Assembly (NCBI GenBank): GCA_021199255.1
Contig: JAJQIK010000072.1
Span: 62,001-126,000 of the forward strand
Direction: 5' to 3'
Origin: Clostridiales bacterium
Lineage (GTDB): Bacteria; Bacillota; Clostridia; Lachnospirales; Lachnospiraceae
Length of the DNA: 64,000 nucleotides
The notes beneath the pieces are model-generated. The model was not told the DNA's origin. It was given only the letters and a program-made list of their open reading frames with translations, and made no database searches. How positions within the stretch are numbered: position 1 is the first letter of the stretch; each line of letters starts with the position of its first letter. This document shows positions 8,848 through 38,914 of this stretch, piece by piece. The position numbers and the translations under genes are program-made.

Positions 8848-8904
8848 ACCAGAGGGCGGAATGGAAACCGATTGAAAATCTGTATAAGGCACGGCGGTCA
8901 TGAC

Positions 8905-9034
8905 AAGTGTGGGAGAGAACCTTTCACACTTTATATTTGTGCCGGAGCGTCACAAATTAGTCTGATGGCAGAAGAGAAACCACTTTCGTGGATGGCTCTT
9001 CGCCCGCCGTTAACGCTCCGGAATGGAGAGGAAC
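8905..9034 (+). promoter_or_regulatory. Structured element A, copy 1 (leader of miaB)
   Basis: The element is built from four parts. Hairpin I is AAGTGTG (8905-8911) with CACACTT (8925-8931). Hairpin II is TTTGTG (8936-8941) with CACAAA (8951-8956) around the 9-base loop CCGGAGCGT. A conserved TCTGATGGCAGA follows. Hairpin III is GAAGAG (8971-8976) with CTCTTC (8996-9001), with an inner CCAC/GTGG stem capped by TTTC. Loop II is perfectly complementary to ACGCTCCGG at 9013-9021, directly before the GGAGAGG ribosome-binding site of miaB. A second copy lies at 38771-38914. A cis-regulatory RNA or a mobile repeat are both possible. Confidence 0.7.
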
Positions 9035-10498
9035 ATGGAATACAGGAAAGATGAAATAGACAAGAGAATCGACGCGCAGGATCTGACGATGACGCCGCCG
9101 GAGCGGGAACCCCAGCGGCAGTATTATTTTATGAAGAAATGTCAGGAAATCGTGCGAAAAAAGTCCGAGGAGCTGGGACGTCCTTTATATGCCTGTACGG
9201 TCAATATGGGGTGTCAGATGAACGCCAGGGATTCGGAAAAGCTGTCCGGCATTTTAACAAAAGTAGGCTATGTGTTGACCCAATCGGAAGAGGACGCGGA
9301 CTTTGTAATCTATAATACCTGTACCGTAAGGGATAACGCCAACCAGCGTGTTTACGGCAGGCTTGGTTTTTTAAACAGCATGAAGCGCCACAAGCCGCAT
9401 CTTAAAATCGCTTTGTGCGGCTGTATGATGCAGGAACCCTCCGTCATCGAAAAAATAAAAAAGAGCTATCGGTTTGTGGATTTGATTTTCGGCACGCACA
9501 ATCTTTTTAAATTCGCGGAGCTTCTGGCCACGATGTTTGAGAATCGGGAAATGATTATCGATATCTGGCAGGGAACTGACCAAATCGTGGAGGAACTGCC
9601 GGTTAACCGTAAATACCCATATAAATCGGGGATTAATATTATGTATGGCTGCAATAACTTTTGCAGCTACTGCATCGTTCCCTATGTGCGCGGCAGGGAG
9701 CGGAGCCGGGAGCCCCGGGAAATTATCGGGGAAATTGAACGTCTGGCGGCGGACGGCGTGGTGGAGATTATGCTATTGGGGCAAAATGTAAATTCCTATG
9801 GCAAAACGCTGGAACAGCCCGTCTCCTTCGCGCAGCTGCTGCGGGAAGCGGAAAAGGTTGACGGGATTCGGAGAATCCGCTTTATGACCTCCCACCCCAA
9901 GGATTTGTCCGACGAACTGATCGAGGTGATGCAGAACTCAACGAAGATTTGCCGTCATCTGCATTTGCCGGTACAGGCAGGCTCCGACAGAATCTTAGCC
10001 GCGATGAACAGAAGATACACGAAGGCGCAGTATCTGGCATTGGTGGAGAAAATTAAAACAGCCATGCCGGATATTTCCCTTACCACCGATCTGATTGTGG
10101 GGTTTCCGGGCGAGACGCCGGAAGATGTGGAGGAAACCATAGACGTGGTGAAGCGGGTGCAATATGATAACGCGTTTACCTTCCTGTATTCCAAAAGGAC
10201 AGGGACGCCGGCGGCCGCCATGGACAATCAGGTGCCGGAGGAGACGGCCAAGGCAGGCTTCAATAAGCTTTTAAGGGTCGTACAGGATACCGCAAAGGAG
10301 CGGGCCGCCAGACTGCAGGGCTGTGTGATGGAGGCTCTGGTGGAAGAGGTCAACGAGCAGGATCCTGCCCTGATGACCGGACGTTTGTCCAATAACATGC
10401 TGGTACATTTTCCGGCCAGACAGTCCCAGATGGGACAGTTTGTGAAGGTTTCCCTGGATGAATGTCATGGGTTTTATTATACGGGACATATCGTATAG
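9035..10498 (+). CDS. miaB: tRNA-2-methylthio-N6-dimethylallyladenosine synthase MiaB
   Basis: This 487-residue radical-SAM methylthiotransferase converts i6A37 to ms2i6A37 in tRNA. The N-terminal UPF0004 domain carries the three auxiliary-cluster cysteines (NMGCQMNARDSE, NTCTVRDNA, CGCMMQ). The radical-SAM core has the CxxxCxxC motif in YGCNNFCSYCIVP (first Cys about residue 206), and a TRAM domain ends the protein. The start is taken at 9035 because GGAGAGG lies just upstream. The ATG at 9023 is part of the A-type repeat. It stands before mutS-mutL-miaA, and MiaA makes its substrate. Confidence 0.96.
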   Translation: MEYRKDEIDKRIDAQDLTMTPPEREPQRQYYFMKKCQEIVRKKSEELGRPLYACTVNMGCQMNARDSEKLSGILTKVGYVLTQSEEDADFVIYNTCTVRDNANQRVYGRLGFLNSMKRHKPHLKIALCGCMMQEPSVIEKIKKSYRFVDLIFGTHNLFKFAELLATMFENREMIIDIWQGTDQIVEELPVNRKYPYKSGINIMYGCNNFCSYCIVPYVRGRERSREPREIIGEIERLAADGVVEIMLLGQNVNSYGKTLEQPVSFAQLLREAEKVDGIRRIRFMTSHPKDLSDELIEVMQNSTKICRHLHLPVQAGSDRILAAMNRRYTKAQYLALVEKIKTAMPDISLTTDLIVGFPGETPEDVEETIDVVKRVQYDNAFTFLYSKRTGTPAAAMDNQVPEETAKAGFNKLLRVVQDTAKERAARLQGCVMEALVEEVNEQDPALMTGRLSNNMLVHFPARQSQMGQFVKVSLDECHGFYYTGHIV

Positions 10499-38317: not shown

Positions 38318-38770
38318 TCATGAACAGATCACATCAGAATCCAGCATAATGGTAAAAGGCCCGTCATTGAGTAAGGAAATCTTCATATCGGCGCCAAATT
38401 CTCCATGGGCAGCCTTTGGTACGGCTTCCTGGCATTTTTGAATGATATATTCATATAATTCCTTCGCCAATTCGGGCTTTCCTGCGTCCGTAAAGGAAGG
38501 ACGGTTTCCATGTCTGCAATCTGCATAAAGAGTGAATTGTGAAATTATTAACAATTCACCGCCTATAGAAGAAAGGTTTCGATTAGTCTTACCGTTTTCA
38601 TCACTGAAAATACGAAGATTCAGCAGTTTGTGTATCATTTTATCTGCTATTTCCCTGGTATCCGTATTAGAGATGCCTACGAATACCAGAAAACCATATC
38701 CGATTTCTCCGATCACCTGGTCTTCTACTTGCACGGCGGCATGCTGCACGCGTTGTATCAAAAACTTCAT
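38318..38770 (-). CDS. dtd: D-aminoacyl-tRNA deacylase
   Basis: The 150-residue enzyme removes D-amino acids (and glycine) mischarged on tRNA. Signatures are MKFLIQRVQHAAV, the SQFTLYADCRHGNRPSF motif, and the cross-subunit Gly-Pro motif in NDGPFTI (usually NGPVT). The ATG at 38770 matches the family N-terminus. An ATG four codons earlier belongs to the A-type repeat, which supplies GGAG. It lies downstream of the permease gene on the same strand. Confidence 0.95.
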   Translation of the reverse strand: MKFLIQRVQHAAVQVEDQVIGEIGYGFLVFVGISNTDTREIADKMIHKLLNLRIFSDENGKTNRNLSSIGGELLIISQFTLYADCRHGNRPSFTDAGKPELAKELYEYIIQKCQEAVPKAAHGEFGADMKISLLNDGPFTIMLDSDVICS

Positions 38771-38914
38771 ATTAATCTCCATTCCGGAGCGTTAGCGACG
38801 GGGCGACGAGAAATCCGCGAAGGCAGTTTCTCGTCTGCCATCAGACAATTTTGTGACGCTCCGGCACAAATTTGTGTGTGAAAAAATCAGTGCATCAGCA
38901 TGATTTTTTCACAC
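38771..38914 (-). promoter_or_regulatory. Structured element A, copy 2 (leader of dtd)
   Basis: In minus-strand order there are four parts. Hairpin I is GTGTGAAAAAATCA with TGATTTTTTCACAC (38901-38914 and 38876-38889), overlapping the permease stop codon. Hairpin II is TTTGTG with CACAAA around loop CCGGAGCGT (38856-38864). TCTGATGGCAGA follows. Hairpin III is GACGAGAAA with TTTCTCGTC (38827-38835 and 38805-38813), with inner CTGC/GCGG capped by CTTC. ACGCTCCGG (38784-38792), complementary to loop II, directly precedes AATGGAGA, the dtd ribosome-binding site. Stem III differs from copy 1 by compensatory changes. Confidence 0.7.

Follow-up and report, generated by a model that had tools for sequence, protein, structure and literature searches.

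The leader of miaB in the window (the whole 64,000-nt stretch of DNA analysed here) is a 5′-truncated copy of a mobile, covarying element of the Lachnospiraceae and near relatives that replaces the Shine-Dalgarno sequence (SD) of the gene before which it lies. Our preferred reading, to which we give a probability of about 80%, is that the element is short, mobile but non-autonomous and of conserved fold, and that it typically inserts between the SD and the start codon and takes over the role of the SD. The leader had been picked out from the letters alone (the sequence-only reading) as a structured element whose loop is complementary to the ribosome-binding site region, and this first observation largely holds, its interest reaching beyond one leader. 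The two copies in the window are listed in Table 1.

Table 1. Features of the two element copies in the window and of the adjacent sequence.
Feature	Position	Strand	Remarks
Terminator-like hairpin (hairpin I of the sequence-only reading)	8905..8931	+	Native, outside the element; T-rich tail
Element copy 1	8936..9031	+	5′-truncated, hairpin A absent; contains hairpin B, hairpin C, 3′ pairing strand and SD; from alignment with other copies of the genome
Hairpin B, copy 1 (hairpin II of the sequence-only reading)	8936..8956	+	Stem TTTGTG/CACAAA; covarying helix
Loop CCGGAGCGT, copy 1	8942..8950	+	5′ strand of the pseudoknot
Hairpin C, copy 1 (hairpin III of the sequence-only reading)	8967..9004	+	Conserved TGATGGCAGA foot
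ACGCTCCGG, copy 1	9013..9021	+	3′ strand of the pseudoknot
SD GGAGAGG, copy 1	9025..9031	+	At the junction of the element 3′ end and native sequence; from comparison with other copies
miaB (radical SAM, UPF0004)	9035..10498	+	Gene downstream of copy 1; predicted start 9035
Element copy 2	38773..38914	-	Full length, GTGTG...GATTA; TA directly 5′
Hairpin A, copy 2	38876..38914	-	Variant with one additional base pair
Loop CCGGAGCGT of hairpin B, copy 2	38856..38864	-	
Hairpin C, copy 2	38802..38839	-	
ACGCTCCGG, copy 2	38784..38792	-	3′ pairing strand
SD GGAG, copy 2	38777..38780	-	Supplied by the element
dtd (D-Tyr-tRNA deacylase)	38318..38770	-	Gene downstream of copy 2; predicted start 38770

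The nine-base loop of copy 1 has a perfect complement directly 5′ of AATGGAGAGG, as had been claimed. The ends of this copy are uncertain by a few bases, and the sequence to its left is native, as in L134, the closest relative in the miaB scan (MiaB 83% identical), in which the element is absent. Hairpin I had been assigned to the miaB element and does not belong to it, being a terminator-like stem that also precedes miaB in L134. The closest miaB relatives in the scan are Lachnospiraceae. No element was seen upstream of miaB in the 80 relatives kept, at least two of which had <200 nt upstream to examine. L185, the sole relative of the 80 flagged by script, was rejected since by eye the flagged region is upstream coding sequence.

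The second copy described in the sequence-only reading is present, on the minus strand before dtd. When the two copies are aligned, hairpins B and C and the 3′ strand are kept in both, and stem III changes from GAAGAG/CTCTTC to GACGAG/CTCGTC and from CCAC/GTGG to CTGC/GCGG, just as described. The further statement that all stems are kept in the second copy is correct for stems II and III and fails for hairpin I, which is outside the element. CCGGAGCGTCACAAA has 2 perfect matches in the window and 5 at up to 3 mismatches, against a mean of 1.39 in shuffled sequence, with none of 100 shuffles reaching 5.

Many more copies are found in the genome of the window (G000), that of a gut bacterium. A blastn search with copy 1 gave 48 matches, the hairpin C pattern gave 62 (3 for the reversed control), and 71 were obtained at E up to 1e-4 with a covariance model whose 32 input copies came from many genomes. 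The catalogue used below contains 64 copies, 65 sites having been recorded and one (C61:39414) removed as false. Full-length copies are non-coding, dispersed and 134-180 nt long (median 145), and their modules run in the order hairpin A, sometimes an additional small hairpin, hairpin B, hairpin C and the 3′ part. Hairpin A is absent from 19 of the 62 copies that are not cut 5′ by a contig end, 18 of them scored by script and the other being window copy 1, whose script match was native sequence. Among 41 matches to hairpin A, 40 keep the rest of the element including the 3′ part and the remaining one is at a contig end (compared by eye), so that hairpin A was not seen apart from the short element, and these matches revealed no larger carrier sharing its 5′ end.

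Six head-to-tail tandems occur in this genome, at C89:55/199, C76:17795/17958, C3:22040/22184, C60:49456/49616, C90:54898/55062 and C3:6845/6950, and by eye a single GGRGATTAGTRTG-type junction is common to five of them. Several copies lie at the ends of contigs C89, C59, C57, C53 and C54; the repeat therefore probably breaks the assembly and the copy count of the genome is a lower bound. In another genome (G312), two loci, L375 and L381, carry a stray element 3′ end, consisting of hairpin D, the pairing strand and the SD, immediately left of a full copy, and by eye the stray end matches the 3′ end of the adjacent copy itself over ∼20 nt, non-consensus bases included.

Loop and 3′ strand vary together. 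Hairpin B is found either with the loop CCGGAGCGT (type B1) or with a loop containing TTTCTGAGC or near variants (B2), and the 3′ part contains either ACGCTCCGG (D1) or GCTCAGAAA (D2/D3). The two types match in 47 of 54 typed copies (12 B1-D1 and 35 B2-D2/3, with 4 B1-D2/3 and 3 B2-D1; Fisher p 1.8e-6, which is optimistic because the copies are related), and the other 10 of the 64 copies are of another type or are not typed on both sides. One of these ten, C93:61287, has a third loop/3′-strand pair, GTCAGAGC with GCTCTGAC. In C89:14232, one of the three B2-D1 mixtures, the D1 variant CTCAGG pairs better with the copy's own loop (by eye). C10:58239 was considered as a compensated mixture and dropped, as an identical 3′ variant was found with the other loop type. 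In the copies at C89:3899 and C90:54898 the stem of hairpin C is entirely different, ACGCAAAT...ATTTGCGT; other species commonly have this stem, and the sequence similarity suggests that there may have been exchange between lineages.

The element folds into hairpins A to D, with the loop of hairpin B paired to the strand just 5′ of the SD. In an alignment of 50 distinct full-length copies from many genomes, 94.0% of 2420 cells at the 50 proposed pairs are standard pairs, against a maximum of 84.1% in shuffles and at most 45.3% when the structure is slid, and double-sided changes occur in 32 pairs and 254 cells (shuffle maximum 96). A separate alignment of 32 sequences, drawn from the same set and covering the part from hairpin B to the SD, has 94.7% of 1048 cells paired and a covariation score of 0.338, compared with 0.125 in shuffles (0/500) and at most 0.078 when slid; because the structure was derived from the same sequences, the slid controls lean towards it. 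When only the 9-bp loop pairing is counted, 93.7% of its 286 cells are paired and 40 cells carry double changes (0/500 shuffles for each), and neither the number of pairs with double changes (4; 302/500 shuffles) nor that of further pair types (189/500) is above shuffles. MFE z-scores are -3.1 for copy 1 (2/200 shuffles fold equally well), -8.6 for copy 2 and -9.1 for the copy of a relative (0/200 shuffles each). The four hairpins and the loop-to-3′-end pairing covary strongly across genera, and the claim of a real, covarying and structured element at the ribosome-binding site stands. The sequence-only reading could not name a known class, and no Rfam class was matched here either: Rfam 15 has no match in the window at gathering and none at E up to 5 in 8860-9060.

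Four bases of the 3′ strand also belong to hairpin D, so that hairpin D and the full 9-bp loop pairing are alternatives. The best single structure (MFE) for copy 1 has the loop-to-strand pairing in place of hairpin B, with the SD region partly covered. In three copies of one subtype (L257-L259) the loop pairing is off the standard register (by eye), and in L365 of G563 (contig C4), which is divergent, the loop pairing spans 10 bp, CCGCAGGCAC/GTGCCTGCGG, and hairpin A could not be recognised (by eye). The 3′ strand of the pairing stops ∼3 nt short of the SD, so that access of the ribosome to this region is probably affected by folding. A putative role of the loop pairing in translation is plausible. 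G-T cells number 69 and A-C cells 57 over the 50-copy alignment. G-T exceeds A-C in hairpin B (17 vs 4) and in the loop pairing (22 vs 7), and A-C exceeds G-T in hairpins C2 (10 vs 4) and D (8 vs 0); these near-equal totals, with opposed counts by helix, do not decide between selection of the fold at the RNA and at the DNA level.

The element lies in the sense orientation before many unrelated genes. Of the 64 catalogued copies, 63 could be used to count downstream genes, one being cut by a contig end; in 38 of these an ORF begins 6-17 nt downstream of the SD, 5 continue into a tandem copy and 19 have no ORF by script. C93:32720 lacks the landmark and hence is outside the 38/63, and a Pfam-matched MATE gene is seen downstream by eye. 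Among 75 copies from elsewhere, which were chosen as good matches and so are biased to intact ones, 65 are genic, 1 is tandem, 7 are not genic and 2 are without the landmark. The start is exactly 10 nt from the first SD base in 77 of 103 genic copies, compared with 11 of 39 ordinary genes of the window. In most copies, therefore, the next gene has the element's 3′ end as its SD, and its native SD remains on the 5′ side of the element. After insertion the native SD would be stranded >100 nt upstream and the gene would be translated from the SD of the element, and this use of the element's own SD would explain why insertion is tolerated.

For this genome 35 downstream genes were listed (36 rows minus one tandem frame). 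Of the 20 scanned, 18 have a Pfam match and all of these are different. They are miaB, dtd, gatB, Hsp33, asparagine synthase, RNA methyltransferase, MATE transporter, nitroreductase, formyl transferase, galactose-1-phosphate uridylyltransferase, class II aldolase, ABC transporter, EamA transporter, ketopantoate reductase, glycosyltransferase, protein kinase, LD-carboxypeptidase and a Cache-domain protein (dCache_1, just below the Pfam cut-off). A tRNA-modification regulon was rejected, as the 18 Pfam-matched proteins share no pathway. The sequence-only reading had proposed a covariance-model search in which many copies before unrelated genes would support a distributed RNA element and restriction to tRNA-modification genes would support regulation; the search returned dozens of copies, many before unrelated genes, and no such restriction was seen.

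Close relatives show clean insertion of the element at a TA following a purine-rich stretch that is usually an SD. Flanks of ten insertion sites were joined and used to search seven genomes, which gave two clean empty sites. The cleanest, L284 (91% identical), reads ATTATGGGGAGGG-TA-ATATGG, and its filled counterpart L244 reads ATTATGGGGAGGG-TA-[GTGTGAAAA...GAAATGGGGAT]-TA-ATATGG, with TA on both sides. The pair L250/L291 (91%) has the same form, with a purine stretch that is not an SD and one junction base different. Three further pairs (L252/L285, L248/L286 and L255/L314) agree with insertion and have diverged spacers, and four (L249/L305, L261/L315, L251/L317 and L245/L316) are too diverged or messy to read. 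Of 22 same-genus loci compared by eye at another position, 21 carry a short, ordinary SD-bearing region before the orthologous start in place of the element seen in this genome.

These sites are reflected in the flanks and ends of the element. Full-length copies with a recognised hairpin A, from the present genome and from others, number 125, the left flank having been placed manually in four. TA is directly 5′ of the element in 103 of them, and 104 have an SD-like 4-mer within 16 nt 5′ of it, compared with 3721 of 20000 16-mers drawn at random from retrieved loci of the present genome. The 5′ end, TA|GTRTG, resembles a start site and the 3′ end, GGRGAT|TA, is an SD. The tandem junction GGRGATTAGTRTG has the same form as the insertion target. 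A head-to-tail junction GGRGATTAGTATG would recreate the form of the target, and this resemblance would explain the tandem copies; the form of the junction suggests that integration may be guided by likeness between the element ends and SD-TA-NNATG sites. A target-site duplication wider than TA, scored as resemblance between the left flank and the SD on the right, is significant when permuted over the pooled copies (0/2000), but it is weak once permuted within genomes (145/5000, or 120/5000 without tandem-like flanks) and is not relied on.

Copy number differs widely between related genomes. Matches were found in 27 of 41 same-genus genomes (own included), with counts of 0-86 over the 41, these counts being lower bounds owing to strict filters and incomplete assemblies, which may partly explain the zeros. 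In a sample of the order the element is present in 21 of 294 genomes and 15 of 144 genera (own included), with one genus from another family, and a DNA search of a family sample found it in 27 of 299 genomes. In a phylum sample only the window's own genome matches (1/299; 0/298 others). Phage and plasmid records have no match to one copy (L066), and viral contigs have no exact match to two hairpin-C patterns. Gene names in other genomes were read by eye from the first residues. On this basis three genes carry copies in different species or genera, namely Hsp33 (C60:252625 of G000 and L106), purN (C89:14232 of G000 and L384) and the MATE gene (C93:32720 of G000 and L389), which could reflect ancestry, chance or preference. 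A switch specific to miaB is not supported, given the range of 0-86 copies within one genus, the lack of copies at miaB in 80 relatives and the empty sites that show insertion.

Known machinery for such an element was looked for in the same genome. The assembly, which is 99.28% complete, has no match to the Y1 transposase family PF01797, for which control matches were obtained in 5 of 14 known genomes. Terminal inverted repeats are absent, the best end-to-end inverted match averaging 4.20 in 91 elements and 4.71 in shuffles. Two group II introns with reverse transcriptases (Rfam RF02001, RF01998 and RF00029) are present, at L368 (contig C62) and L369 (contig C79).

How the element moves, and whether its fold serves mobility, translation or both, can be read in several ways. 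The hairpins may have been selected as DNA, as single-strand or cruciform sites for a recombinase or transposase acting in trans, with the RNA fold as a by-product; we regard this as possible, though doubtful. Many bacterial repeats likewise have TA at the 5′ end (here 103/125) and a TA target, the target would be regenerated by a recombining junction, and the G-T and A-C counts (69 and 57, with A-C ahead in C2 and D) indicate no clear RNA-only constraint. The lack of inverted ends and of a Y1 transposase and the lead of G-T in hairpin B and the loop pairing speak against such a site, and DNA sites of this kind are not known to have a long pairing between a loop and the element end. An RNA parasite homing to the starts of translation is rather unlikely. 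Its 5′ end would imitate the start-codon context and its 3′ end the SD, the junction GGRGATTAGTATG would equal the target SD-TA-NNATG, and sense insertion would replace the SD of any gene, placing the translation of dozens of unrelated genes per genome behind one shared pseudoknot. If this were true, the cell or the element would gain a common handle on the translation of those genes. A SINE-like retroelement, whose transcript is copied by a reverse transcriptase in trans while its SD-like 3′ end anneals to the target SD, would give both the insertion site and the 5′-truncated copies. The 19 of 62 copies without the 5′ hairpin, the 40 of 41 hairpin A matches that keep the 3′ part (with the 41st at a contig end) and the two group II intron reverse transcriptases are consistent with this. 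We nevertheless judge it unlikely, as missing 3′ truncations may reflect selection on a 3′ end that is often the SD of a gene, the flank duplication is weak within genomes (145/5000) and no link was found between the reverse transcriptases and the element.

A cis-regulatory RNA, that is, a riboswitch-like or protein-binding leader that controls a real regulon through the pairing of the loop with the pre-SD strand and has been multiplied because it is useful, would account for the sense orientation and the fixed place at the SD, with 77 of 103 copies at one spacing. The loop pairing covaries, its full 9-bp form has four bases in common with hairpin D, and in the MFE fold of copy 1 the SD region is covered in part and the loop is paired to the 3′ strand. 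This is nonetheless quite unlikely, since the downstream genes have no pathway in common, copy number ranges from 0 to 86 within one genus with none seen at miaB in 80 relatives, tandem copies and copies away from genes occur, hairpin A is absent in 19/62 and Rfam has no match. The 5′-UTR riboswitches with SD-proximal pseudoknots are tied to pathway genes and usually present in few copies. As in these, pairing beside the SD could gate ribosome access; unlike them, the element is mobile and pathway-blind. That the conserved entity is a small protein of about 47-53 aa (MKNHTDV...) encoded by the element is highly improbable. In 5 of 35 copies a frame opening at the first ATG (MKNHTDVLIF...) runs to a TAG that lies 1 nt ahead of the following gene's start, but in 9 of the 35 it is closed by a TGA within the loop of hairpin B, GTG-TGA stands at the beginning in 14, and the other loop type (B1) is read in another frame. 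Two element peptides have no match in Pfam or NCBIfam, and the small protein was rejected because the reading frame is not conserved among the 35 copies. A leader peptide from the GTG-TGA starts was also dropped, as these bases covary with the other arm of the hairpin (by eye).

The non-autonomous, SD-replacing mobile element preferred here has partial counterparts among known repeats. bcr1 of the B. cereus group, with up to 130 copies, is described as restricted to that group and tied to a TTTAT motif (PMC6542083), and bcr1 and its relatives have mobile features and are often in mRNA UTRs (PMC3446304). Like the present element they are short dispersed repeats with mobile features, the Bacillus repeats at tens to >100 copies (PMC6542083, PMC3446304), but the hosts of the present element belong to the order of the Lachnospiraceae, its targets are SD-TA-start sites and it supplies the SD. 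With the MITEs Correia/NEMIS, ERIC and RUP it shares a length <200 bp, the absence of own proteins, TA at the ends and strongly folded transcripts (PMC2229807). Some bacterial MITEs affect neighbouring mRNAs, most have terminal inverted repeats and RUP has a likely IS source (PMC2229807). Unlike these, the element is without inverted ends and has four hairpins and a loop-to-end pairing where MITEs are mostly long stem loops (PMC2229807). It also differs from IS200/IS605-derived and REP/RAYT elements in that the genome has no Y1 transposase. The TAACTGA repeats of Beggiatoaceae are similar in location only, lying mostly in sense immediately before the starts of functionally unrelated genes; they are seven-base direct repeats of little SD character, with no complex fold described in the passages used (PMC4679880). 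A survey of ncRNAs in 50 genomes describes selfish structured mobile or repeat motifs such as MRSC-65-2 (PMC11109978), which is likewise a covarying structured motif judged selfish and present in dozens of copies per genome, but has a single long stem and occurs in diverse phyla (PMC11109978). Published candidate lists, such as those belonging to PMC8040213 or PMC11109978, may contain the element without a name. The main texts of the open-licence papers searched report no element with insertion between SD and start codon and an SD of its own, and SD replacement by a small mobile repeat looks new.

If this reading is right, the element is a mobile element that favours the gap between ribosome-binding site and start codon and is kept harmless by bringing its own SD. 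It would then explain recurrent structured leaders in Lachnospiraceae, which are common in the gut, and such leaders could be mistaken for riboswitches in comparative-RNA searches. It would also provide a natural experiment, in which one structured leader is placed before dozens of unrelated genes, with the empty sites available in sister species.
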